From Flavobacteriales bacterium (GTDB lineage: Bacteria; Bacteroidota; Bacteroidia; Flavobacteriales_F; PHOS-HE28), in contig JAGNUG010000010.1 of the NCBI GenBank assembly GCA_017987115.1, positions 1 to 57,052 of the forward strand: DNA of 57,052 bases, written 5' to 3'. The notes under the pieces are model-generated. The model saw nothing but the letters and a program-made list of their open reading frames with translations, ran no database searches and was not told where the DNA came from. Each line of letters begins with the position of its first letter. Position 1 is the first letter of the stretch. Below, in pieces: positions 2,130-23,698 of the stretch. The position numbers and the translations under genes are program-made.

Positions 2130-3149
2130 TCACATTTTCTGCAACGCGCATTGCCAGGTCCAGGCATCGCGCAGTGCATCATCCAATCCGCGTTCTGCTT
2201 TCCAACCCAACACCTTGCCGCTCTTGCTGGTCTCGGCATATACGCTTTCCACATCGCCCGGTCGCCGTGGCCCGATCGTGTAAGGAATGGTAACACCGGT
2301 CACCTTCATGAACGTGTTCACCACATCGAGTACCGTAATGCCGTTGCCCGTTCCGATGTTGAACACTTCGCAAACCGGCGCAGTGCGTTCTTCCATCCAT
2401 TCCAACGCGCGCACATGGGCCAAAGCAAGATCCACCACATGGATGTAATCGCGCACGCAACTGCCATCGGGGGTTGCGTAGTCATTGCCGTGCACCGTTA
2501 GTTCCTTGCGCATGCCTGCACCGGTCTGTGTAACAAAGGGCACCAGATTGTTCGGAACACCCAGCGGCAGTTCTCCGATGGACCCACTTGGGTGCGCGCC
2601 GATCGGGTTGAAATAACGCAGCAGCACTGCCTTCAATCCACTTACCGCAACGCTTTGATCGCGCAACAATTGTTCGCACACCACTTTGGTAAAGCCATAG
2701 GGTGAGTTCGCATTGCGATCCGGTGCAGCCTCCGTTACCGGCAATTCCGCAGGTTGACCATAGACCGTGCAACTCGATGAGAACACGATGCGCTGGACAC
2801 CATGTTTCTTCATTGCACCCAACAACACCACCAACGAACCCACGTTGTTCCGGTAGTATTTCAAGGGCTCCTTCACACTTTCACCAACCGCTTTATCCGC
2901 CGCGAAATGGATCACACCGAACACCGGGTCTTCTTTTGCAAACACCTTATCCATCGCTGCTGCATCCGTACAATCCACACGGTGCGTGCTAGGTGCTTTA
3001 CCGATGATCGCAGCGATACCCTCCAATGCGCGCTCTTCGCTATTGCGTAGATCATCCACGATCACGGGCGTGTACCCCGCATTGTGCAACTCTACACATG
3101 TATGCGAACCAATGAACCCTGCTCCTCCGGTTACGATCACTTTTTTCAT
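2130..3149 (-). CDS. galE: UDP-glucose 4-epimerase
   Basis: 339 residues, the normal length for GalE, which interconverts UDP-glucose and UDP-galactose with bound NAD in the cytoplasm. The N-terminal Rossmann motif TGGAGFIG is at residues 7-14. The catalytic serine region SSSCTVYG is around 124-131, and the YxxxK pair is Y151/K155 in SPYGFTK. It is an extended short-chain dehydrogenase and lies alone on the minus strand. A CACCTTTG box ends 7 nt before the ATG, so the transcript may begin at or next to the start codon. Confidence 0.95.
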   Translation of the reverse strand: MKKVIVTGGAGFIGSHTCVELHNAGYTPVIVDDLRNSEERALEGIAAIIGKAPSTHRVDCTDAAAMDKVFAKEDPVFGVIHFAADKAVGESVKEPLKYYRNNVGSLVVLLGAMKKHGVQRIVFSSSCTVYGQPAELPVTEAAPDRNANSPYGFTKVVCEQLLRDQSVAVSGLKAVLLRYFNPIGAHPSGSIGELPLGVPNNLVPFVTQTGAGMRKELTVHGNDYATPDGSCVRDYIHVVDLALAHVRALEWMEERTAPVCEVFNIGTGNGITVLDVVNTFMKVTGVTIPYTIGPRRPGDVESVYAETSKSGKVLGWKAERGLDDALRDAWTWQCALQKM

Positions 3150-3156
3150 GCACGTG

Positions 3157-3164
3157 CAAAGGTG
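3157..3164 (-). promoter_or_regulatory. putative -7 box of galE
   Basis: The minus strand reads CACCTTTG, one mismatch from the Bacteroidota -7 consensus TAnnTTTG. Seven bases separate it from the galE ATG, so transcription would start at or immediately before the start codon. No clear -33 TTTG box is visible. Confidence 0.5.
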
Positions 3165-3303
3165 GTGCGAATGCCATTATCCCGTTCCGTGAGGTGATCC
3201 GAATTGCTCAATGGTGATCGTTAGCAGTCCATCGTCTGTTCCTTCCACGCGTTTGAGTCAAGGCTTCCAATGTTCATCTCCACGCATCAACTATTTGCAC
3301 TAT

Positions 3304-3885
3304 CTAAGATTGGTCGTCCGCCAAAACCCGGACAGGCCCGGCGAAGGTTTGACATTCGCAGGAGCGGGGGTTGGGAGGGTGCTTAAATTCAGAACTCGCA
3401 TAAATAGGGTTGGACACTTCAAAAAAGGATTGAGCCTTAGATATGGCCATGCGATCTGAGCAACGCCTGATAGTAACACCTTTAGAAAGAGTAAGTCCAG
3501 CTTCCGTAATTTCCTTATAACTATGCTCTGAGATGCATGGCGCATTAGTATTACGAACACTTGCAACCTGAATGCAATATCTGTCATGAGGACAATAAAT
3601 TGGAAAGTCTGTAGTACGTATCAACGGATAGCATCCTGATGGATCTTCTTCATAAAATTCCATCATGCTCAACCTCTCCAATCCGGTTTTATTGCGTGGA
3701 ACACTGATAGAGTAAACAAGCCATACAGAGCTAATGTATAAAGAGTCATCGGTGAGTACTTCTGGAGTAGTGTATGTTAGTTTTTGAACTTCAATCAAGA
3801 GTCCGTCTTCTACAGTTTTATTGCATGATGAGAAAGTTAACACCAGCAGTAAAATCGAAAGCGCGAAAATGGCTGTTAATCGCAT
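3304..3885 (-). CDS. small lipoprotein of unknown function (island gene 1)
   Basis: 193 residues from ATG at 3885. The N-terminus MRLTAIFALSILLLVLTFSSC is a lipoprotein signal with the acylated Cys in TFSSC. I do not recognise the rest, which is Cys-containing with no obvious repeats. The frame is open further upstream through the repeat element at 3895-4112, but the signal peptide marks 3885 as the start, only about 10 nt after the element's end. The last 18 or so codons run into a 39-bp repeat (3312-3350), so the native stop may have been replaced. The sequence is visibly more A+T-rich than neighbouring housekeeping genes, which suggests foreign origin. Confidence 0.7.
   Translation of the reverse strand: MRLTAIFALSILLLVLTFSSCNKTVEDGLLIEVQKLTYTTPEVLTDDSLYISSVWLVYSISVPRNKTGLERLSMMEFYEEDPSGCYPLIRTTDFPIYCPHDRYCIQVASVRNTNAPCISEHSYKEITEAGLTLSKGVTIRRCSDRMAISKAQSFFEVSNPIYASSEFKHPPNPRSCECQTFAGPVRVLADDQS
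3312..3350. repeat. 39-bp repeat, copy 1 of 3
   Basis: Begins GGTCGTCCGCCAAAACCCGG and ends GAAGGTTT. Other copies are at 4139-4177 and 4997-5035, with a few substitutions. It contains GTCCG and CGGAC arms able to form a short hairpin. It overlaps the 3' end of island lipoprotein gene 1. Confidence 0.9.
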
Positions 3886-3894
3886 AGAACTCTT

Positions 3895-4112
3895 TAAACC
3901 CACGCAGGGTGACTTCCACCTACTCTCCGAAGACAAGCCTACGCCGGCGCTTGAGGCCCGTGCAGCGGTGGGTCTGTCCGCTGCATTTGAGCGGATGACC
4001 CTGCGGTTCGCTAGTGTAAACATCAAGCCTCTCATCACGGTCCATTTCCATTGCACGGTAACGCAAGATATATGCTTTGGGCTATGGCTGGGTACTACCC
4101 TGCGTGGGTTTA
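3895..4112. mobile_element. 218-bp MITE-like element, copy 1
   Basis: Bounded by a perfect 16-bp terminal inverted repeat, TAAACCCACGCAGGGT on the left and ACCCTGCGTGGGTTTA on the right. The terminal TA at each end could be a target duplication, as made by IS630/Tc1-mariner-type transposases. It has no transposase gene. The same-length copy 2 is at 4770-4987, and an 89-bp internal core (4014-4102) recurs at 5875-5963. It sits directly upstream of island lipoprotein gene 1 on the minus strand. Assignment as a miniature transposable element is inference; the repeats and inverted ends are seen directly. Confidence 0.7.
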
Positions 4113-4138
4113 AGGCGCTTGAGCCCCGTGCAGCGGTG

Positions 4139-4177
4139 GGTCGTCCGCCAAAACCCGGACAGACCCGGCGGTGGTTT
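4139..4177. repeat. 39-bp repeat, copy 2 of 3
   Basis: Same sequence as 3312-3350 except for a few substitutions near the right end. It lies 26 bp from the right end of the first 218-bp element and is followed at 4204-4217 by a solitary copy of the terminal repeat (ACCCTGCGTGGGTT). Confidence 0.9.
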
Positions 4178-4269
4178 GGCTGCGTCGGCTACGGCTTGGG
4201 TTTACCCTGCGTGGGTTCAGATGCGAAGGCTAGGAAGGCGTATGCGTGAGGGAACGGTGTTAGCGCGCG

Positions 4270-4794
4270 TCAGGGGATATTCATCAGGGCGAGTGAGTCT
4301 ACGAAGATTGCTCCACTTTCATCGTCAACTCGAACAACTATACCAGACCTAACTAAGGAAGCAACTGCGCAAGCCGTAGAGTCATTGGTAATCTCTGCTG
4401 TTATCAAGCCATGCCTGTCAAAGTACTTGGATGCGATAGCAGATGGTCTTTGATCTCTGATGTCAGACGGGCAGGAGTATGGAACAAAGTTGTAGTAGGT
4501 AAGGTCCTTTCGTTCAACGACCACTGGCTCGTTGCGGAGTATGGAGCGCACTACAAAACGGCGATACTGTGGGTAAGGCATGATAGTACCCTTCTTAGCA
4601 AGGTATCCTTGTAGCGTCCCTGTCTTCACAAGGCAATGTAGTAGGGTATCATCGACGCGCACAGTTACAGGTAGCCATGCGCCGCCAACATCTACGACAT
4701 CGAGAGTCTTGTTGATGTTATGCTTTTGGCCGCCACACCCAAGCAACAACGCAACGAGGATAACTGTGCTAAACCCACGCAGGGTGAATTCCAC
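4270..4794 (-). CDS. small lipoprotein of unknown function (island gene 2)
   Basis: About 174 residues if translation starts at the GTG at 4794. The predicted N-terminus is MEFTLRGFSTVILVALLLGC, a lipoprotein signal ending at LLLGC, and its first eight residues are encoded inside the 218-bp element at 4770-4987. The frame stays open upstream through most of the element to a TTG at 4941, so a longer product with an element-encoded N-terminus is possible. The mature region is unrecognised; it contains several Cys and ends MNIP. It shows no similarity by eye to island genes 1 or 3 apart from the repeat-derived part. Confidence 0.6.
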   Translation of the reverse strand: MEFTLRGFSTVILVALLLGCGGQKHNINKTLDVVDVGGAWLPVTVRVDDTLLHCLVKTGTLQGYLAKKGTIMPYPQYRRFVVRSILRNEPVVVERKDLTYYNFVPYSCPSDIRDQRPSAIASKYFDRHGLITAEITNDSTACAVASLVRSGIVVRVDDESGAIFVDSLALMNIP

Positions 4795-4987
4795 GTACTC
4801 CCCGAAGACAAGCTTCCGCCGGCGCTTGAGCCCCGTGCGGCGGTGGTTCTGTCCGCTGCATTTGAGCGGATGACCCTGCGGCTCGCTAGTGTAAACATCA
4901 ACCCTCTCATCACGGTCCAATTCCATTGCACGGTAACGCAAGATATATGCTTTGGGCTATGGCTGCGTACTACCCTGCGTGGGTTTA
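4770..4987. mobile_element. 218-bp MITE-like element, copy 2
   Basis: It has the same length as copy 1 and the same perfect 16-bp terminal inverted repeats, with terminal TA. Internal differences from copy 1 are scattered substitutions. It overlaps the apparent 5' end of island lipoprotein gene 2. On its other side lie ten unrelated bases and then the third 39-bp repeat. Confidence 0.7.
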
Positions 4988-4996
4988 AGGGCGCAG

Positions 4997-5035
4997 GGTC
5001 GTCCGCCAAAACCCGGACAGACCCGGCGCAGGTTT
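4997..5035. repeat. 39-bp repeat, copy 3 of 3
   Basis: The same 39-bp unit as at 3312 and 4139. In all three places it lies downstream, on the minus strand, of an island lipoprotein gene. Confidence 0.9.
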
Positions 5036-5044
5036 GGGTTTGGC

Positions 5045-5106
5045 TTGCGCGGGTTTAGTGTTCACCCTGCGTGGGTTTAGGCTGGGGTTCACCCTGCGTC
5101 GGTTTA
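5045..5106. repeat. tandem solitary copies of the element terminus
   Basis: Two copies of the ACCCTGCGTGGGTTTA terminus lie at 5064-5079 and 5091-5106 (the second with one substitution), 27 bp apart. A third degenerate copy (TTGCGCGGGTTTA) lies at 5046-5058. These look like nested insertion remnants or a tandem array of termini just downstream of island gene 3. Confidence 0.75.
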
Positions 5107-5156
5107 GCTTCTTATAGTTCTTCTTGGGAACTTGCACTGCACAAGTTCTTTTATTT

Positions 5157-5912
5157 TCAAGGCCCAAATACTAGAGTAGTAGAGTCCTTCATCTCCAATA
5201 CGTCATAACAATCCTCTGGCCGTGGAAACAAACTATCCAACCTATCACTAAGTGGCGTGCCCTGTACATTAACGATATAGAAATTCAGCTCCTTCAAAAT
5301 CAAGGAATCCACGGAAGTTAAGATAGGGCTATCAAGTATTAACTGCCCACCGCTGCACGCAGTGTTAATCAAATGTCGCGTCGAACTGAAGCGGCCATTA
5401 AGCATAAGTGTGTTAATCCTAATGCCTTGTTCGAAAATATTCGAAGTAAAAGGATCTGACATCGTAATATTAATAAGGCGAAGTCGCGGAAAGGATAAGG
5501 AAATTGGGTGCAAAGAAGTAAGCTCATCTGCAACTATATTCAGGTTGGATAATCTTTCCATAGGAATGTGTTCTACATCCAGAATAATGGTATCCACTCT
5601 GAGCCACAGTGTTGAGCATCCTAAAAAGTTTAGCGCTTTGGCTATTGAGTCTGAAAGCGTAAAAACACCATTATAACGTAACTCAATGTTGCCATCAGTT
5701 TGATCGGGGGTATTATCGCGAAATGCTAACAACTCATCAATGCTTTCGAATAAGGTTGGATAATACACGTGTTCAACCTGCTGGTGATCCGCAGATTCCG
5801 GAACGATCGAATTCTGACAGCTTCCCAAACCTAGTAAGAACATAGCAGTACACCACTTGACAAACCTCCGCCGGGTGTAAACATCAAGCCTCTCATCACG
5901 GTCCAATTCCAT
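5157..5912 (-). CDS. LRR-like lipoprotein of unknown function (island gene 3)
   Basis: About 251 residues from ATG at 5912, which lies inside the third partial repeat copy. The N-terminus includes RRRFVKWCTAMFLLGLGSC, a positively charged hydrophobic stretch ending in a lipobox-like LGSC. An ATG at 5843 would leave only eight residues before that Cys, too short for a signal peptide, so an upstream start is needed. The mature part is rich in regularly spaced Leu/Ile with Asn (LSNLNIVADELTSL, RINTLMLNGRF), suggesting irregular leucine-rich repeats. Function is unknown. Base composition is A+T-richer than the flanking EEP gene. Confidence 0.6.
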   Translation of the reverse strand: MELDRDERLDVYTRRRFVKWCTAMFLLGLGSCQNSIVPESADHQQVEHVYYPTLFESIDELLAFRDNTPDQTDGNIELRYNGVFTLSDSIAKALNFLGCSTLWLRVDTIILDVEHIPMERLSNLNIVADELTSLHPISLSFPRLRLINITMSDPFTSNIFEQGIRINTLMLNGRFSSTRHLINTACSGGQLILDSPILTSVDSLILKELNFYIVNVQGTPLSDRLDSLFPRPEDCYDVLEMKDSTTLVFGP

Positions 5913-5963
5913 TGCACGGTAACGCAAGATATATGCTTTGGGCTATGGCTGGGTACTACCCTG
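5875..5963. repeat. 89-bp element core, copy 3 (truncated element)
   Basis: Nearly identical to 4014-4102 and 4889-4977. The flanking outer part of the element is missing on the left, and the right terminus is decayed (ACCCTGTGTTGG instead of ACCCTGCGTGGG). On the minus strand it precedes island gene 3 and encodes the peptide MELDRDERLDVYT in frame with it. Confidence 0.85.
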
Positions 5964-6061
5964 TGTTGGCAAATAAGGTACATCAAAGCGTAGCGGACGT
6001 TCCTCTGAAATGGAATGATTGATCCATCGCATTCACGGACGATGTGGTACACGCTACCGCA

Positions 6062-7234
6062 CTATAGCAGCAACAACTTCACCACACGCTCTTCGCTCGA
6101 ACTCTTCACGCGCAAGTAATATACGCCACCGGACAGGTAGCTCAGGTCCAACGCATGCGACCCAGCTCCTTGGTCGGAATGGACCATTCTGCCCGTTGCA
6201 TCCAACACGCTTACTGTTGACGTGTGATCGTTCGGTAGTTCTACGGTAAGCGTTCCGTAGCATGGGTTGGGGTAAACCGTGAGCGTATTCAGTGCGGCAC
6301 GTTCAGCTACCGACACCCTATTGAAGAACTCGATGGACGCGACGACCGGCAAATGGTCCGTGGCATAATAGAGCGCATCGGCCATCGTCTGGCTTACGGA
6401 TGCGTTCGGCATCGCGTTGATGCTTTGGTTGTAATGCAGCCCATCGTTACCAACGGCCCAGGTGCTGTTCGTTACATAGCTCACACCATTCGCTGCTAGC
6501 AAACCGGGTGAGAAGAGGATCATGTCGAACCGATCATCCATGGCGCCGGATGCGCCTCCGCCGAACGCGGTGCTGCGCGTACTTTGGGTGTGGTGCGGCG
6601 CGTAGTTCACATTGTTCCATGTACCCGGCAGCACGATGGGGTCGATGAAAAAACCGCTCCCAGTGGTGGACAACAACCGTTGATACGCCGGTTCATTGGA
6701 ACCGTAGATGTTGAAATCACCACAGACGATGAAATAGGCATCCGGTGGCAACAGATCCGTGACCGCGCGTAACGCATTCACCTCGTTCAAGCGCAGGTCC
6801 TGATTCTCCACACCTGAGCTGGATTTCAAATGCACGGAGAACACCCGCAGCGTATCGCCGGAAGCCAGGTGCACCAATACGAACTGGGAAATATCACGCA
6901 GGTCTGTCTGAATAGGAATGTTGGCGACGGCCTCGAACACAGCAGCATTGTAGTACAACGCATTGTCCGTAGTGAACCCATCAACGAACGGCGCCATGGC
7001 CATGCTACCGCCCAGCACCGCACTGTGGAAGTAAGCTGCACCAGGCTCTTCCTCCACCTCCTGCACAACCAGAATATCCGGCTGAAGCGAATCAACGACC
7101 GTCTGAAAATAGACGACCCTATCCTGCGCATCTGTTGAAAAGTTAAGCGCGTTCCAGGTCATGATCCGTGCCGGCTGCGCGAAGACCAATAAACCGAGCA
7201 AGCAACATACGCTCGTGAACGATAGGCGTTCCAT
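6062..7234 (-). CDS. secreted endonuclease/exonuclease/phosphatase-family protein with T9SS type A tail
   Basis: 390 residues from ATG at 7234. A signal peptide (MERLSFTSVCCLLGLLVFAQ) precedes an EEP fold of the DNase I/sphingomyelinase superfamily. The visible motifs are MTWNALNF, VQEVEEE (metal-binding Glu), VHLKSS, CGDFNIYG (Asp/Asn) and TDHLPV (catalytic DH pair). The last 75 or so residues begin VYPNPCYGTLTVELP and end VVKLLLL, a T9SS type A sorting domain, so the enzyme should be exported to the surface or medium. The substrate could be extracellular nucleic acid or phospholipid. The frame extends upstream, but the signal peptide and a nearby promoter box fix 7234. Confidence 0.88.
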   Translation of the reverse strand: MERLSFTSVCCLLGLLVFAQPARIMTWNALNFSTDAQDRVVYFQTVVDSLQPDILVVQEVEEEPGAAYFHSAVLGGSMAMAPFVDGFTTDNALYYNAAVFEAVANIPIQTDLRDISQFVLVHLASGDTLRVFSVHLKSSSGVENQDLRLNEVNALRAVTDLLPPDAYFIVCGDFNIYGSNEPAYQRLLSTTGSGFFIDPIVLPGTWNNVNYAPHHTQSTRSTAFGGGASGAMDDRFDMILFSPGLLAANGVSYVTNSTWAVGNDGLHYNQSINAMPNASVSQTMADALYYATDHLPVVASIEFFNRVSVAERAALNTLTVYPNPCYGTLTVELPNDHTSTVSVLDATGRMVHSDQGAGSHALDLSYLSGGVYYLRVKSSSEERVVKLLLL

Positions 7235-7240
7235 ACAGCG

Positions 7241-7248
7241 TAAAGGTC
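7241..7248 (-). promoter_or_regulatory. putative -7 box of the EEP gene
   Basis: The minus strand reads GACCTTTA, a weak match to TAnnTTTG. It ends 6 nt before the ATG, in the spacing seen for several other genes in this window. Confidence 0.35.
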
Positions 7249-7295
7249 CGGCTTTTAATAAGAACGCGCAGGCGTTGAGGATGGAACAACGAACA

Positions 7296-7323
7296 AAGCC
7301 CCCCGCCTTATGGCGGGGGGCTT
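7296..7323 (-). terminator. strong hairpin terminator
   Basis: AAGCCCCCCGCC and GGCGGGGGGCTT form a perfect 12-bp stem with a TTAT loop. It lies just after the stop of the gene at 7353-7871 and before the EEP gene, separating the two minus-strand transcripts. Confidence 0.85.
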
Positions 7324-7352
7324 CTTGCAATTCAAGAATGTTTCGATTTGAC

Positions 7353-7871
7353 CTACTCACCAAGTGCGGCCATGGTCTCTACCGGAACCATCTTGCGGTC
7401 GTGTTTCACTTTCATCAGGCCTGAACCGTTCAGGAAGGTGATGGTTCCTACAGGACCAGCATATTCAAGTCCGCGGTTGGTTTCGTTGGCTTCAAGTACC
7501 ACATCGAAATCCACTTTGTGGTTGGCTTTCTGCGCGTCTTTCGTGTTCAAAGCATTGCGGGTATCCACATCAACGGACTTGGTGATGAAGCCGGGCTTGT
7601 AGAAGATCAACCGGGCTTTTACGTTCACAGGTACGTGGAATTCGAAATGACCGTTCGGCTGCACTTTGGCGAACATGCACTCAGAATCACCCAATTCAAC
7701 TGCAAGAACCACGTCATGTGCATCCAGGGTATCCATGTGCAACCATCCTGTTAGTACCAACTTATCCGTGGTGGTCTCGTTGCCGGGAGCAGCGAAGAGA
7801 CCTAGGCCGATCAGTGCGCAAAGACCTGTTAGGAGGGCCGAGAGGAAGAGGTTGGTGGCTTGCTTTTTCAT
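7353..7871 (-). CDS. exported protein of unknown function
   Basis: 172 residues. MKKQATNLFLSALLTGLCALIGLGLFAAPG is a signal peptide. The mature domain has alternating hydrophobic strands (VLTGWLHMDT, GHFEFHVPV, ARLIFYKPGF), suggesting a small beta-sandwich resembling carboxypeptidase-regulatory-like domains. No catalytic motif is visible. It is monocistronic, with a terminator behind it and a GACATTTG box about 30 nt upstream (7901-7908, minus strand). Confidence 0.7.
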   Translation of the reverse strand: MKKQATNLFLSALLTGLCALIGLGLFAAPGNETTTDKLVLTGWLHMDTLDAHDVVLAVELGDSECMFAKVQPNGHFEFHVPVNVKARLIFYKPGFITKSVDVDTRNALNTKDAQKANHKVDFDVVLEANETNRGLEYAGPVGTITFLNGSGLMKVKHDRKMVPVETMAALGE

Positions 7872-8046
7872 TGTGGGGAGGGTGTGTGATAGTGACGATA
7901 CAAATGTCCGGCAGAGCCCCCTCCGCTACAATACCCACATGTGGGGAAACTGGGTTCCAAGGGCTCATAAAGAACACCACGACTGGTCCTGAAGATCTCC
8001 ATACGGCTATTCTCAACTTCGATCACCATCTTCACGCCTTCGTACC

Positions 8047-9846
8047 ATGCGATCGATCATGCGCTCTCGTTCTTGGCTTGCAATCCTCACGGTGATGATC
8101 TGCACCGTGGTCCTATCGGTGAACGGGCTGTGGATCGGCGAGAACGGCGATGGGTGGAAGGACACCATCCGCAGTGATGCAAAGGGTTACTATAGCTACC
8201 TGACGTCAACGTTTTTGCGGAACGACCTTGGCCATGAGCCGCCCGCATACGAATACGTGCAGCACACACCCAACGGCACCTTGAACAAATATTTCTGCGG
8301 TACGGCGATCGCCATGGCGCCGTGGTACGCTGTTGGTCATGGGCTGGCGTTGCTGGATGCTACCGCTCCGCGCGATGGCTACAGTGCGTATGAGATGAAG
8401 GCGATCAGCTTCGGGGGCTGGGTGTATTACCTGCTAGGCCTGTTGGCCTTGCGCGCGGTGTTCCTGCGCTTGGGTGTACGCGATGGGGTCATTGCTTGGC
8501 TGATCCTTGGTCTCGGATCCGCCACACCGCTGCTCCAATACGTGGCCATACAGCCGGGGTGGTCCCATGTGTATTCGTTCTGCGCCATCAGTGTGTTCCT
8601 GCTGTTGGTGCACAAGTTGGCCAGTGGTGATGCGCTGCGTTGGGCCTTGCCCGCAGCCGCACTTTTCGGACTGATCATTTTGATACGACCCGTGAACGGT
8701 TTGGTGCTGCTAGCCGTACCTATAGTGGCCGGGTCGAATACGGGAATGCTCATTGCACGGTTGGTGCAACGTTGGCACATCTTGTTGCTTTCCGCACTGA
8801 TCGTGTTGCTGATCGTCGGTCTGCAATCCGCTCTCTGGCATGCGCAGACCGGAAGTTGGTTCGAATGGGGGTACCGTAATGAAGGGTTCTATTGGGATAG
8901 GCCGATGGTCTACGAAGTACTGATCGGGGTCCGGCGCGGGTTATTCGTTTGGTCGCCGTTCCTGTTGCTGGCGGCTGGTCCGGCGTTCCTGTTGTGGCGC
9001 ATGGATCGCACCCGATCGGGGTTCACAGTGTTGTATTGGATCGTCAATACCTACGTGATCAGTTGCTGGTGGATCTGGTATTACGGCAGTGGCTTCGCTA
9101 GTCGGGTGTACATCGATCACTACCCCATTCTCTTGATCTCCGCTGCACTGGTCCTGCAACACGCTGCACCACGTTGGTGGACCGCTGCACGGGTTTTCAT
9201 TCTGACCTTCATCGGACTGTTCCTCTTTCAATATTGGCAATACCGGAACGACATCATCCACCATGAACACATGGATGCGGAGAAGTACGCGTACACTTTT
9301 CTGAAGACCGATGACGCTTACCGCTTCAGCCTTGGCGGTCGCTTTGAAGAAGCGCCGTACCACCCCAATGGGATGGAGCTTGTACTAACCGAATGCACCG
9401 ACCTGGAACGGCCCGCGCGCTATTGGACAGGGGGACACCTCGAGCGGATGGACCACGCGTTCAGCGGAGACAGTGTTTGCGTATTCGATGTCCACCGGGA
9501 TTATGGAACATCCTTTACTGCGCCGGCCGGTACCATTCCGCCCGGTCGTGAAATTTATCTGAAGGTCGGCTTCATGCGCTATGAGGTCCTGGCCGGTGAA
9601 GCATCCAAAGCGCTTTGTGTGACCAGTGTTTCCCATGCAGATGGTTCACAGGGCTATTACAATTCGTTCCGCATGGAGCCCATGACCGGCCTCACGGACA
9701 GTACCTGGAAAGCACTGGACCTGCGGATACCTGTCCCCGAATTGCAGGAGGGTGATGCGCTCCATTTCTACATCTGGAACCAGAACGGAGAAGGGCGTTT
9801 TCAGATCGACGACCTGATGATGCGTGTTTACGCCGTGCGTCCGTGA
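8047..9846 (+). CDS. polytopic membrane protein, GT-C glycosyltransferase-like
   Basis: 599 residues. Roughly the first 400 carry about ten transmembrane segments, and the last 180 or so form a soluble, beta-rich domain. The first extracytoplasmic loop holds acidic residues in WKDTIRSDAKGYYSYLTS, similar in placement to the Asp-containing loop of GT-C enzymes such as ArnT/PMT that use lipid-linked sugars. The C-terminal region may be a carbohydrate-binding-like sandwich. The substrate is unknown. An alternative ATG lies at 8059. A hairpin follows the stop. Confidence 0.65.
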   Translation: MRSIMRSRSWLAILTVMICTVVLSVNGLWIGENGDGWKDTIRSDAKGYYSYLTSTFLRNDLGHEPPAYEYVQHTPNGTLNKYFCGTAIAMAPWYAVGHGLALLDATAPRDGYSAYEMKAISFGGWVYYLLGLLALRAVFLRLGVRDGVIAWLILGLGSATPLLQYVAIQPGWSHVYSFCAISVFLLLVHKLASGDALRWALPAAALFGLIILIRPVNGLVLLAVPIVAGSNTGMLIARLVQRWHILLLSALIVLLIVGLQSALWHAQTGSWFEWGYRNEGFYWDRPMVYEVLIGVRRGLFVWSPFLLLAAGPAFLLWRMDRTRSGFTVLYWIVNTYVISCWWIWYYGSGFASRVYIDHYPILLISAALVLQHAAPRWWTAARVFILTFIGLFLFQYWQYRNDIIHHEHMDAEKYAYTFLKTDDAYRFSLGGRFEEAPYHPNGMELVLTECTDLERPARYWTGGHLERMDHAFSGDSVCVFDVHRDYGTSFTAPAGTIPPGREIYLKVGFMRYEVLAGEASKALCVTSVSHADGSQGYYNSFRMEPMTGLTDSTWKALDLRIPVPELQEGDALHFYIWNQNGEGRFQIDDLMMRVYAVRP

Positions 9847-17617: not shown

Positions 17618-20600
17618 TCACTCCTCCACTGCAACACGGATGCCTTCACTGTGACTACTGAATTCCGGGGCGTACATGCACATCGCTGTGGTAATGCCAC
17701 TGCTGAAATCACCAGCATGTGTTACCCGAAGGTCGTATTCGAACACATACGTTCCGGGCGAAATCCGATCAAAGAAAAAGTGCATGGCCACATCCCGGAT
17801 GCTTTGGTAATAGCCCAGACCACCTTGATAATTGTATCCGCTGATGGCTACTGTTGGCTCCAGACCTGCCGCTCGCAGGTCTTTCAAATGCACGTAGTCG
17901 ACATATCGATCGGTCTTTAGCTCGATACGCATGGTGAGCAGATCGCCGGCCTTCAGGTTGCGTGCTTTGTTCAATGCGATCAGTTGTGGACCACTCTCCG
18001 TTTGCTCATGCAACATCACTTTCTTGCTGATGACAAATGGACTTTCATGCGGCGTGACCTTGTCCATTTGCTCCAGGTACTGCCAATGCAATGCGCCCCA
18101 CTGAACGCCGTCCTCGGATGTGGTGATCGTTACCGCGCCCATCTCTGGTTTCACTTTATCTCCGCTCCAGCTTTGTGTGAAGTAACCAGTGCCCGCTTCC
18201 TGTGCATCTGCTCGTATTTGCTCCGTACCCACTTTGATGACCGGTTGCGACTTCGGTTCCAGCAGGTCGCTGCCCGTTAGCAATAACGCGTAGCACGCTT
18301 CTGATGTAGCCTTCGTCGTTTTCCAATCCGTGGTCTGTTTTAGTTTCAACAGGTATTGGCGTAACGCATCCACGCTTTGATCATCCTTCATCACTTCATG
18401 GAATGCTTCGATCATCAACGCATGTGTTTCCGTCGGAAATTCACTCCAGGAATATCCGCCTTTGAATTCCTTCCAATACATACCGAGCTCTTCATTCCGA
18501 GTTGCCCGTTGGGATAGCGATATCATGATCAGCTCCGCGGTTGCATGATCTCCCATCCGATCCAATGCCAACGCGGCCATGGCCTGCCCTTGGAATCCGT
18601 TCTGCAACCATGTCGCGGCCAATCGCTTTTTATAGAATTCCATAGCGGTATTCGTTCCGCCTGTGATCGGCCAACGTTCAAAAAAGCTACGTGCGTAGAG
18701 CATGTGGATATCCAGTATGCTCGGCTCATAGTTCTCCAGTGCTTCAGCTTTGTTCCGCTGCACCAGCTCTTTGTATCCTCGATCGATATCGGCATCCAAC
18801 CATTGTACGGCCTTTTGCAACATGCGCTGTGCTGGCCCATCCGTGCGCAGGTCCGATGCACCCAACTTTTCCAGATGTCCGAAGCCCGCAACAATGTGCT
18901 GCGTTATATACCGGCTCTCGCGCATGCCGCTCCACCAAGGCCACCCACCATTATCCAGTTGCATATCCTGCAATTTCTTCAGTGCGATCGCTTCTTCGGA
19001 ACCCATACGCTGTAGATCAAAGAACAAGGCAATGCGATGCTTGCGTTCTGTTTCATTGTTCGCGTTCAACACCCAAGGTGTTTCTTCCAGCACAGCGGTT
19101 TTCAATTCATGATCTTTCTCAAGTGCTGAAAGGAATGCACCTTCATTCCCATTCGTTTCCGCCTGTTCCTTCCACGCTTTGAATACGCTTTCGATCACCG
19201 GACGCTCTTCAACAATATGCCCTGCCAATCTGTTCGCATAATAGCGACTGAACGTCTGCTCGGCGCATGCATGCGGAAACTCCATCATGTACGGCAACGC
19301 TTGTACCGCGTACCAAGCAGGGTTCGGTGTGAACTCCAATTTCAAGTTCTGATGCTTCAATGTGGTGCTCGTTGTATTCTTCAACTTGTCGAGCGTGAAG
19401 GTCTTTGTGCCCGCCTTCGTTATGGCGATCGGCAAACTTTCGGTGACGAATACTTTGTCCGTTAGAACTGGCAACACGCGTTCTTCACCATCTCCGATCC
19501 GGCCATTGGATGCTGAAATGCGTATGCCAACAACGCTCCATGTTTCCGGCACGGTAATGTCCCATTCAACCGACGCGCTTTTGCCTGGTCCAGCGTTGAA
19601 ATTCCGCACTGCTTCCGTTATTCCGAACTCGTTCGTCACAGTTCTATTCGTTAATGGATCAAAGAGCTCCAACGTTGCATCACCGAGTACTTCACCTCCT
19701 TCGATCACATTCACTTTTGCGGTCAGCGTTATCCGATCACCTACCCGTAAAAAGCGCGGCAGGTTCGGCACCACCATCAGCGGTTTTTGCGTGATGGTCT
19801 CTTTGCTGAAGTTCGCGATCTTCAGGTCCGGCGTGTGTGCCAAGCCCAACACTTTCCATCGCGTTAATGCGTCGGGTGTTTTGAATCGCAATACGATTGA
19901 GCCATCGCGATCGGTAAGTAGAACGGGGAAGAAAAATGCCGTCTCGCGAAAGTCGCTGCGTAGGGGTTGTTGTGTGGAGGCAGACGGAGTGGATGGCGGC
20001 TCTGGGCTTTTATCCAACCTCTCTTCGTCAAGACCACCGGCCTCCGCATCGTCAATTACAGGAGATGCAGCGATACTCATTTCATCTTCTGCAAATAATC
20101 CAGGAGCAGGCGCATCAGCGTCCATTCTTGAGTTCCGATGCATTACGACACCTCTTTGACCTTGAGCCGAATAGTCCATTACCCCGCGATACCGGCCCAT
20201 ACCAAAAGTTTCCAAATACGGATACCTCCGTGATGTATCCGCAGCGCCTGCATAATTGCGATACACCTCTTGCCCATACGCCTGCCCGAATGGCTCTGCA
20301 CGCGACCAACCCAAGAGTGCTGAATTACTTCGCCAGATCGATAGGTTCCAGTTGTGCGGCACGAAGTGATCCAATGATGCATCGTACATCACAGCGAGCA
20401 ATTGCGCGGCTACTTTTTCCTTCTTCGGTCCCGTGATCTTCAAGCGCCATTCTTCGTCTTGTCCGGGTAATAATTTATCGCGGAATGTTTGCCATTCCAC
20501 GTTCAATTCCTTGTTGCTCCATGGGACATCGATCCATTGTGTCGACATGTGTTGTAGTCCGCGTTCCACACAAACAAAATGCACAGCGAAACCACCGCGA

Positions 20601-23600
20601 TCCAGTTCCAACGCCGGGATCTCCAATAGCTGTTGGCCCTTCTTCAAAAGTATGCGCCGGTTCACAACGATCTTACCGTCGCGTTCAACCTCCATCAGTA
20701 CGCGGCATTCATCGAGCGCACTGCTTATTAATATCGCTGCGCTTTCACCCGGCTCCACGGTTGTCTTCAGCAATTCCACGTGAAATGCATCGTTCACGAA
20801 TCCGGTATTCTGTATTGTTGGATCGTAAATGGTGATCACTTTGCTCGCTTTCACCGGTATCCCTTGTGGATCATTCACGCTCACATCGATCCGATAAGTT
20901 CCAACTGTCCAAGCATCCAATTCCGGCAAGAAGGTCTTCTTGCCATTCGCTCGCACACTGTCCCGCTCAAAGTGTACACGCTTAACCGGCCAGTTCATCG
21001 GATCCTCATGTTTCAGGTCTTTCTGGCCTGGCAGAAAACGATTGGGTCGTTCCCACAGACGATCTCGGAACGGAGCATCAGCAGGCGCCTGCAATTCAAC
21101 GATCGTAATGTCCATCGGTAGATCGACATCCTGTCCGTTCAAGTTCTTTACGCGCACATCCAAACTATCCGTTACCGAACGATCGATCGCATCGCCACCA
21201 TTGATCACAATGTCGACACTTCGGTATGCGACATTGATCGTCGTTGTGCTTGTTTGCGTTTCTCCATTGATATCGACCGCACTCGCTTCTACGGTGTAGA
21301 AAAATGTTGGATCCGCATTGCGCGGAAAGATCCAGTCCGGTTGTGCAATGAACTTGATGACGAACATCCCTTCCGCATCACACTCGGCAACACCACTGGC
21401 CAATTGTGTTTCTCTGCCCCACGGCAATCCACGCCATCCCCAGCCGCACCACCATGGCATACGTGCGCCCCGCTTCACCGTCCATTGAACAGTAGCACCA
21501 TCCAACGGAACACCTGCGTAACTTTTAGCAACACCAGTAACGGTTGCTTCAGCATTCAGTTTCGGTGTATCGGTGATCGGATCGAACAACACCTCGAATG
21601 TTGGGCGCTTGTATTCTTCAACCTGAAAATAAACGGACCCATGTTCTTCTTCAACGTGCATGCCACCGGTAAGCACGCCTTGCGGTGTTCTGAATGAACC
21701 ATGGAACGAACCGTATTCATCGGTCGTCACATTCAAGGTGTCAACCAGTTCACCGTTCACATCAAAGAATTTCACTTGTGTTGCGTACCCTGCTTTTACT
21801 CTGGTATTCGTTCCATTCTTGGCAGTGACAATGCCTTTGAACAATACTTCCTGCCCTGGTCTGTAGATCGCGCGATCGGCGAACATGAATGTGCGCAATG
21901 ACTCCTCTTGTTCACTATGCTCCGCCATGTAGATCCAGCGCGATCCCGTATGGAACTTGTCATCACCAATGGATACACTCCAGATCAATTGCCCTTGTTG
22001 TCCTTTAAGCGATGTTCGGACCATCCCTTCTTCATTGGTCGTGAATTCTTCGACTCCAATGAAACGGCGATTCCCGGTGTAATCCCTATTCCTAACATAA
22101 GCCCATGCTTTCGCACCTTTGATCGGCTTGCCGGTTGTTCGGTCCAAAACCAAGAGATCCAGATCGGCTCCGTGATAACGATCAACGACAGCAATATCGG
22201 TGCTCCAGAAATTCGCGAAGACCAGGATGTCCCGTTCGGGTTTGAAAGTGGCACTGTCGCTGATCAGGATCGCGTAACGACCATAAGGCAATCCTTCGAC
22301 GGGTAACTCGGTCAGATGCGCATTCATGTCGCCATCATCGGGGAGGTCAACAGACCATTCGCGGATCGATTTCCTAGTTGTTAGTTCTTTACCATGATCA
22401 CCGTTATACCGCTGGTCATCGTTGATGTCCTGCGGATCCTTCACAACACGCAACCACAGTTTCTTTACGTTGGCATGTTGCACGGCGATGATCGATCCCG
22501 CATTTCCGGGAACTGCCTCCTCGGCGAACAACTGCAATGAAGGCCGCTCCAATTGCTTTTTTAATACGGCGGCTTTTATTGCGCCATAGGACTCTGGATA
22601 TTTGGCGATCGCGGTGTCGCACAGATTCCGTGCTTTGATCCGCTCTTCCTTATATGCATCACCGACCAACCGCTGATAGTTATTGGCCTGTTCACTATGC
22701 CATTCAGCCATAGCAACACCTACTTCGCTATAGGCGGGTAACCGCAACAACCTGCTCTGCAAAATGGAAAGAGCGTTGTAGTACAAGCTATCCTTATCTG
22801 ACAATGTGCTATGCTCCCGCACGAATGACAAGCGGTCGAGAATAACATCGGTAAGCGCTACCGGAGCATCATCCGCCAAGTGGCTGCGCTCCAATTGTTG
22901 GAAAGTGATCAACGCCTTATACTCCCACGAGGTACTGTCGCGATGCGCGATCTTCTTCCATGCAAATGCTTCAAAGAGCTCGAAGTAGAACGGGTCGTCC
23001 AGCTTGAACCGCCACTCCGGTTCCGTTAGCCGTGTCTCGGAATTTTCGAACACCTCGATAGCCCGTCTTCCCAATAGATCGTATACCGTTGGTCGCAATT
23101 CTACCGCGCCATCTTCATTACCCAATAGTTCACCGAGACCTGCCGATGGGATCTGCTTCAATGTATCATAAGGTTCCACGGACGCCGCGTATTCCGCGAT
23201 CACTTTCGCCATGAATTGGCGCTGTGTCCATGTGCTTGGATCACTATCCAGTACATCTTCAGAGGACGCAAGATCCGTTCGTTGCAACACCTGCCAGCGA
23301 CTCTGTTGGTATAGGTTCCAATAGCTCTCACCAATAACCGAATGCAACACTTGCTTTAACGGCACATTGGCGTTCGTCGAACGTTCTTCCAATGCAATCA
23401 ACCACTCTGTTCTTTCAACTCCGGTCCGTTGTTCGAACGTCCCGCGATACATCCATGCTTTGAATTCGGTGCGCCAATCGTTCCGGCTTTGAGCATCCGT
23501 TAGCAAACCGTTCACCTGCTCCAATGCCGATGCGTATTGACCGATCTTGGTAAGACTGTCGATCACTGACCAGCGTGGGTCCGAGGGTTCTATGTTCGTG

Positions 23601-23698
23601 GTGTTCACGTTGTTGCGGATGAGGCTGCAGGTCATCAGGAACGCTGAGCTAGCGATCACTGCAACGGTGTTAAGGAACAGACGGAAAGTGTATTGCAT
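17618..23698 (-). CDS. alpha-2-macroglobulin family lipoprotein with thioester
   Basis: 2026 residues. The N-terminal hydrophobic segment ending LMTC is a lipobox, suggesting a periplasmic or outer-membrane-anchored protein. About 350 residues of helical sequence precede the MG2-type sandwiches. A flexible bait-like stretch rich in Asp/Glu/Pro/Ser lies around residues 1180-1240. The thioester motif CAEQ is at residues 1478-1481 within FPHACAEQTFSRYYANRL, followed by the alpha-toroid helices. Bacterial alpha-2-macroglobulins trap proteases that breach the envelope. No pbpC-type partner is adjacent, unlike the enterobacterial arrangement. Confidence 0.93.
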   Translation of the reverse strand: MQYTFRLFLNTVAVIASSAFLMTCSLIRNNVNTTNIEPSDPRWSVIDSLTKIGQYASALEQVNGLLTDAQSRNDWRTEFKAWMYRGTFEQRTGVERTEWLIALEERSTNANVPLKQVLHSVIGESYWNLYQQSRWQVLQRTDLASSEDVLDSDPSTWTQRQFMAKVIAEYAASVEPYDTLKQIPSAGLGELLGNEDGAVELRPTVYDLLGRRAIEVFENSETRLTEPEWRFKLDDPFYFELFEAFAWKKIAHRDSTSWEYKALITFQQLERSHLADDAPVALTDVILDRLSFVREHSTLSDKDSLYYNALSILQSRLLRLPAYSEVGVAMAEWHSEQANNYQRLVGDAYKEERIKARNLCDTAIAKYPESYGAIKAAVLKKQLERPSLQLFAEEAVPGNAGSIIAVQHANVKKLWLRVVKDPQDINDDQRYNGDHGKELTTRKSIREWSVDLPDDGDMNAHLTELPVEGLPYGRYAILISDSATFKPERDILVFANFWSTDIAVVDRYHGADLDLLVLDRTTGKPIKGAKAWAYVRNRDYTGNRRFIGVEEFTTNEEGMVRTSLKGQQGQLIWSVSIGDDKFHTGSRWIYMAEHSEQEESLRTFMFADRAIYRPGQEVLFKGIVTAKNGTNTRVKAGYATQVKFFDVNGELVDTLNVTTDEYGSFHGSFRTPQGVLTGGMHVEEEHGSVYFQVEEYKRPTFEVLFDPITDTPKLNAEATVTGVAKSYAGVPLDGATVQWTVKRGARMPWWCGWGWRGLPWGRETQLASGVAECDAEGMFVIKFIAQPDWIFPRNADPTFFYTVEASAVDINGETQTSTTTINVAYRSVDIVINGGDAIDRSVTDSLDVRVKNLNGQDVDLPMDITIVELQAPADAPFRDRLWERPNRFLPGQKDLKHEDPMNWPVKRVHFERDSVRANGKKTFLPELDAWTVGTYRIDVSVNDPQGIPVKASKVITIYDPTIQNTGFVNDAFHVELLKTTVEPGESAAILISSALDECRVLMEVERDGKIVVNRRILLKKGQQLLEIPALELDRGGFAVHFVCVERGLQHMSTQWIDVPWSNKELNVEWQTFRDKLLPGQDEEWRLKITGPKKEKVAAQLLAVMYDASLDHFVPHNWNLSIWRSNSALLGWSRAEPFGQAYGQEVYRNYAGAADTSRRYPYLETFGMGRYRGVMDYSAQGQRGVVMHRNSRMDADAPAPGLFAEDEMSIAASPVIDDAEAGGLDEERLDKSPEPPSTPSASTQQPLRSDFRETAFFFPVLLTDRDGSIVLRFKTPDALTRWKVLGLAHTPDLKIANFSKETITQKPLMVVPNLPRFLRVGDRITLTAKVNVIEGGEVLGDATLELFDPLTNRTVTNEFGITEAVRNFNAGPGKSASVEWDITVPETWSVVGIRISASNGRIGDGEERVLPVLTDKVFVTESLPIAITKAGTKTFTLDKLKNTTSTTLKHQNLKLEFTPNPAWYAVQALPYMMEFPHACAEQTFSRYYANRLAGHIVEERPVIESVFKAWKEQAETNGNEGAFLSALEKDHELKTAVLEETPWVLNANNETERKHRIALFFDLQRMGSEEAIALKKLQDMQLDNGGWPWWSGMRESRYITQHIVAGFGHLEKLGASDLRTDGPAQRMLQKAVQWLDADIDRGYKELVQRNKAEALENYEPSILDIHMLYARSFFERWPITGGTNTAMEFYKKRLAATWLQNGFQGQAMAALALDRMGDHATAELIMISLSQRATRNEELGMYWKEFKGGYSWSEFPTETHALMIEAFHEVMKDDQSVDALRQYLLKLKQTTDWKTTKATSEACYALLLTGSDLLEPKSQPVIKVGTEQIRADAQEAGTGYFTQSWSGDKVKPEMGAVTITTSEDGVQWGALHWQYLEQMDKVTPHESPFVISKKVMLHEQTESGPQLIALNKARNLKAGDLLTMRIELKTDRYVDYVHLKDLRAAGLEPTVAISGYNYQGGLGYYQSIRDVAMHFFFDRISPGTYVFEYDLRVTHAGDFSSGITTAMCMYAPEFSSHSEGIRVAVEE

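Follow-up and report, generated by a model that had tools for sequence, protein, structure and literature searches.

The repeat mosaic that surrounds three predicted lipoprotein genes in a 57,052-nucleotide stretch of a Flavobacteriales genome (contig JAGNUG010000010.1, hereafter the window) is probably a REP-type (repetitive extragenic palindrome) repeat family, mobilised at present or in the past by the RAYT (REP-associated, TnpA-REP) transposases of this genome and arranged here as REPIN-like units next to orphan genes. The family, named R1, is of a known kind and is itself probably undescribed. The main arguments are the resolution of the mosaic into one hairpin family, the presence of this family throughout much of the genus and its proximity to all RAYT genes of the genome, at least one of which carries the motifs of a mainly Bacteroidetes subclass.

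Composition of the repeat mosaic

A repeat search and alignment place a 95-bp core in three copies on the minus strand (4014-4108, 4889-4983 and 5875-5969), with 97% identity over 95 bp in the comparison of window repeats. The third copy adjoins an inverted R1 that has lost its hairpin and of which only CCGGCGGAGGTTTGTC is left. Two copies of a 218-bp element, also on the minus strand, are 95% identical over 221 bp; the copy at 3895-4112 has 16-bp terminal inverted repeats and that at 4770-4987 carries the 16-bp termini at both ends. A 39-bp direct repeat occurs three times, starting at positions 3312 (3312-3350), 4139 and 4997, and solitary 16-bp termini lie at 4204, 5064 and 5091, besides those that end each 218-bp element. 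The lengths and identities of these repeats far exceed chance. An earlier note on this DNA had described an 89-bp core in three copies, two 218-bp elements, three 39-bp repeats and solitary termini, and all of these were recovered at the places and with the identities that it reported. The assembly is a draft of 202 contigs, so that misassembly of the repeat junctions is possible.

When the repeats are aligned with their matches from related genomes, the mosaic resolves into a single 74-bp hairpin family, R1, with the ends TAAACC/GGTTTA. Read on the strand opposite to the R1 model, the element has the form CCGCAGGGTCGTCCGC-loop-GCGGACAGACCC-GGCGGAGGTTTG-spacer-GGACACCCTGCGG-TGGTCTAG, i.e. a hairpin to which a second right half is appended. 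The 39-bp repeat corresponds to the R1 hairpin. The 95-bp core and an inverted R1 together make up the 218-bp element; a single model covers the 39-bp repeat, the outer portions of this element and most termini. On the minus strand, this model identifies R1 on the 3' side of lip1, overlapping the end of that gene (3307-3376, 21.8 bits, holding the first 39-bp copy), downstream of lip2 (4134-4221, 66.2 bits, comprising a 39-bp copy and a solitary terminus) and downstream of lip3 (4992-5081, 74 bits, containing a 39-bp copy). Inverted copies are present on the plus strand upstream of lip1, within the 218-bp element (3893-4006, 61.7 bits), and upstream of lip2, overlapping its start (4768-4881, 49.5 bits). 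The terminus search places a solitary 16-bp R1 terminus at 5091-5106 on the plus strand.

R1 starts with TAAACC or TAGACC and has no GTAG tetranucleotide foot. The consensus-type hairpin out-folds its shuffled versions (z -3.64), and two window copies do so only to a moderate degree (z about -2.2). On another contig of this genome (G000:C144, stretch L040, 2430-2545), short inverted repeats of the form TAAACC..GCAGGGTCTTCG...GAGACCCT form a shorter relative of R1.

Read in the direction of the genes, lip1 and lip2 are each preceded by a unit of about 330 bp that is composed of R1, core and inverted R1; the alignment shows the core, followed by a remnant without hairpin, before lip3. At their 5' ends, all three genes adjoin a GGTTTA/GGTTTG terminus, and at their 3' ends they meet TAAACC-like heads. 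The 218-bp element resembles MITEs in its 16-bp terminal inverted repeats and in having no coding capacity of its own. Unlike MITEs, it has no target-site duplication visible by eye at 3895/4112 or 4770/4987, its termini are the ends of R1, and no transposase with matching ends was identified. In this lack of a target-site duplication it agrees with the RAYT class of transposases.

The associated genes and their island

The three orphan ORFs are located on the minus strand and are lipoprotein-like; their lipoboxes were assessed by pattern and by eye, and their status as lipoproteins is a predicted one. The first, lip1 (3304-3885, signal MRLTAIFALSILLLVLTFSSC), carries its own complete signal, its ATG lies 10 bp away from the end of the repeat, and its frame runs into the 39-bp repeat. 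For the other two, a usable lipoprotein signal requires that translation start inside the repeat: lip2 (4270-4794) has a likely GTG start at 4794 (MEFTLRGFSTVILVALLLGC), and lip3 (5157-5912) an ATG at 5912, within core copy 3 (MELDRDERLDVYTRRRFVKWCTAMFLLGLGSC). In agreement with the earlier note, no similarity is recognisable between the three, and they are A+T-richer than their surroundings, with a GC content of 0.43, 0.49 and 0.42 for lip1, lip2 and lip3, respectively, against 0.52 for the window. The annotated frame of each is the best-scoring of the six, and its codon usage is unlike that of the genome. Open frames of equal length were rarely found in Markov sequence, with frequencies of 1/2000 (lip1), 15/2000 (lip2) and 0/2000 (lip3).

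No convincing homologue of lip1-3 was found in 197 genomes, where lip2 gave one weak match (4.7e-6, 23% identity) in another family. Protein-pattern searches of viral contigs recovered none of the three, their DNA has no match in phage or plasmid collections, and family libraries returned no curated match. Nothing pointed to a known RNA or to an origin from a plasmid, a phage or a virus. Structure prediction from single sequences was uninformative (mean pLDDT of 41 for lip1 and 38 for lip3). Elsewhere in the window (17618-23698), a predicted protein of 2026 amino acids has a lipoprotein-like N-terminus (...AFLMTCSLIRNN).

The array lies in an island (3150-8046) that is flanked by galE (2130-3149) on one side and by the gene at 8047-9846 on the other and was delimited by comparison with five relatives. 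The gap between these two head-to-head genes is 4,897 bp here, compared with about 75-185 bp in the five relatives. There, no R1 is found between galE and the orthologue of the 8047 gene, and the galE/8047 stretches contain no match to lip1-3 or to the genes at 6062 and 7353. In addition to the array, the island carries a small ORF and a gene for a T9SS-sorted, endonuclease-like protein; a search of the island revealed no recombinase gene. The lip genes and the array are accessory, and the island is species-specific. The earlier note had considered that the three genes and their repeats might be fixed and syntenic in all relatives; these five genomes are without the island.

Distribution of R1 within the genus

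Of the 45 genomes examined from this Flavobacteriales genus, 31 contain R1, with 12 copies in the present genome and up to 22 in one relative. Two public records that contain the R1 core sequence are Flavobacteriales metagenome-assembled genomes. Copies are predominantly intergenic (68 of 71 sampled, versus about 34% of random positions; gene calls in the relatives are from our own codon model) and show no bias in orientation towards the nearest gene 3' end (21 same, 22 opposite). They do show a marked strand preference with respect to each other: in the relatives, 35 of 38 neighbouring R1 pairs within 5 kb are on the same strand. These runs follow neither from the orientation of genes nor from GC skew; the latter is too weak to decide on replication-strand bias, which was considered as their source.

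One example is a shared hypervariable locus adjacent to carB. In seven genomes (G010, G058, G060, G067, G066, G059 and G034; stretches L147, L149, L151, L152, L153, L156 and L157, respectively), R1 is always on the strand of carB, and the cargo between R1 copies includes toxin-antitoxin pairs and PIN, YhcG nuclease and ORF6N genes. The domains found in the cargo of R1 loci are ParE, DUF5615, ORF6N, PIN and YhcG. In two of these stretches (L156, 10930-13455; L152, 1-1057), the carB sequence appears as two portions separated by foreign genes or sequence, as if integration of elements into the 3' portion of the gene had duplicated or split it.

Association with RAYT genes

R1-type repeats lie no more than about 1.5 kb from each of the three RAYT genes in this genome (one on contig C57 and two on C175). 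Given about eight R1 loci in 3.7 Mb, we estimate that such nearness would arise by chance with a probability of less than 1% for each gene; the two RAYTs on C175 are near-identical copies. RAYTs adjoin R1 also in G010, G058:C52 and G065:C126, and RAYT fragments lie next to R1 in G058:C151 and G067:C121. A point against the REP-type reading is that a search for Y1 transposases found none in several R1-rich genomes (G059, G060, G061 and G067); the same search missed the RAYT of G058:C52, and the Pfam profile PF01797 misses at least one RAYT in these genomes.

The protein encoded by the C57 RAYT has the motifs NHVH, WQ, YIHNNP and SSAR, the pattern of TnpAY1 subclass 2.6 (PMC6006769). According to that work, members of this subclass occur mainly in Bacteroidetes and are flanked by atypical palindromes without GTAG, copies of which are found elsewhere in the genome (PMC6006769); R1 likewise lacks the GTAG foot. 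Close to the C57 RAYT itself (L038, 2540-3330), hairpins of the typical GTAG type (GTAGCC...GGCTAC) are present, with R1-like elements further out, so that R1 is perhaps not the cognate repeat of this transposase; the locus of this one RAYT is common to two families of repeats. On C175, the two near-identical RAYTs (L045, 1376-2170, and L201, 476-1354) are about 3.2 kb apart, with tandem CTGCAGGGTC...GACCCTGCAGAGGTTTAG palindromes at each.

Discussion

The position of R1 beside all three RAYTs, together with the subclass 2.6 motifs of the C57 protein, leads us to regard R1 as a REP family of atypical form, and the units in the window as composites similar to REPINs. Like REP/BIME sequences and REPINs with their RAYTs (PMC6006769, PMC2817692, PMC3116915), R1 is a short imperfect palindrome, intergenic, arranged here in inverted pairs and located beside RAYTs. 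It differs from them in its long unit of 74 bp, its second half-palindrome, its low copy number and its same-strand runs in relatives, and the window units differ in having a 95-bp core between the two halves. The CGTC-tagged REPs are also palindromic and intergenic and are found in Bacteroidetes as well (PMC3733652), and an arm of R1 contains TCGTCCG. However, the CGTC families are reported to have stems of 8-9 bp with A/T at the first positions and not to flank transposase genes (PMC3733652), whereas R1 is longer and lies near RAYTs. The same-strand runs are unusual for REPs and count against a REP reading. So does the copy number: REP families usually exceed 100 copies, and the 12 copies of R1 are few for such a family.

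On the REP-type reading, two inverted R1 copies around the 95-bp core, with TAAACC/GGTTTA ends facing outwards, constitute a REPIN-like composite, and two such units and a decayed third lie upstream of the three orphan genes in the galE/8047 island. R1 is probably mobilised by the RAYTs, now or formerly: single-strand cleavage and rejoining by a RAYT, or recombination between copies, would have multiplied the units beside genes that were already there or arriving by transfer. Since the core is confined to this locus, we infer its mobility from the three local copies. The shared flanks of the lip genes would then have arisen by insertion of repeats, not by cutting and pasting of genes, and the location of the lip2 and lip3 start codons within the repeat could be a by-product or the result of later co-option.

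The earlier note had proposed instead a repeat-driven system that swaps surface lipoproteins behind a shared 5' module. The ATG frame of the core does read into lip3 and, via the repeat, into lip2, and the lip genes are strain- or species-specific. However, lip1 is outside the core frame, and the core was found only at this locus. Nor are lipoprotein signals enriched beside R1 (5/99 versus 5/149, p=0.53), and R1, as seen above, has no orientation bias. Unlike recombinase-driven loci for switching of surface proteins, the present one has no silent copies of the lip genes elsewhere in the genome and no recombinase in the island. Antigenic switching specific to lipoproteins appears highly improbable; the lipoprotein theme is local to this array. 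The cassette-like recurrence of gene, R1, core and inverted R1 in the same order and orientation stands for two units, the third being entirely without hairpin. This recurrence would also be expected if a single lipoprotein gene had been duplicated in tandem together with its flanks and the gene copies had then diverged to an extreme degree, with gene conversion preserving the similarity of the repeats. The contrast between repeats that are 95-97% identical and genes that share no recognisable similarity, and again the hairpin-less unit, make such a history improbable.

A further alternative is that R1 serves as the recombination site of integron-like cassettes, each consisting of a gene and a 3' R1, that form same-strand arrays through the action of some recombinase or of a RAYT at the R1 foot. 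As in integron arrays and integrase-less attC clusters, R1 hairpins of relatives occur in same-strand runs between accessory genes, which include toxin-antitoxin pairs and nucleases, and their strand is constant beside carB in seven genomes. Moreover, single genes between R1 copies (RibD-like, ORF6N, epimerase and an orphan family) have different neighbours in different species, and the homology of some modules ends at the R1 3' terminus; an alignment that reaches the R1 end is to be expected in any case, since all R1 copies resemble one another. Against these points, no integron integrase (TIGR02249) exceeds the cut-off in the 45 genomes of the genus, consistent with the earlier remark that none was visible in the window. 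GTTRRRY/RYYYAAC boxes are not conserved at R1 ends (3' ends such as GGTCTAG and GGTTTAA have no matching 5' box), and R1 has neither the canonical core sites nor the fixed orientation to genes of integron arrays. Cassette modules that end at R1 looked strong, and the excess vanished in a control with R1-less gaps: at the same loci, synteny was broken in 30 of 32 homologous pairs of gaps without R1 and kept in 2, and with R1 in both genomes it was broken in 8 and kept in none. Related repeats are present in other variable loci as well, with synteny breaks no commoner at R1 than at gaps that lack it. R1 lies beside the same gene in two genomes in 8 pairs, against about 4.5 expected, which is near chance. 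As gaps without R1 break synteny equally often, we retain the cassette reading as an unlikely one, and such a system is unproven. Still less likely is its most explicit form, in which R1 copies would be the active sites of an integrase-less cassette system in this genus, a RAYT-type HUH transposase cutting single-stranded DNA at the R1 foot and moving gene-plus-R1 circles from one R1 site to another. The same-strand arrays at carB, galE and other loci, with their toxin-antitoxin, nuclease and orphan lipoprotein genes, would be its products.

With R1 as a probable REP-type family, what appeared to be a lipoprotein cassette array becomes a palindromic repeat family with a link to a branch of REP transposases in Bacteroidota that has received little study. 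In hypervariable loci, runs of R1 on one strand recur across many species of a single genus. If these runs were indeed cassette arrays, they would represent a gene-capture system that operates without an integron integrase.
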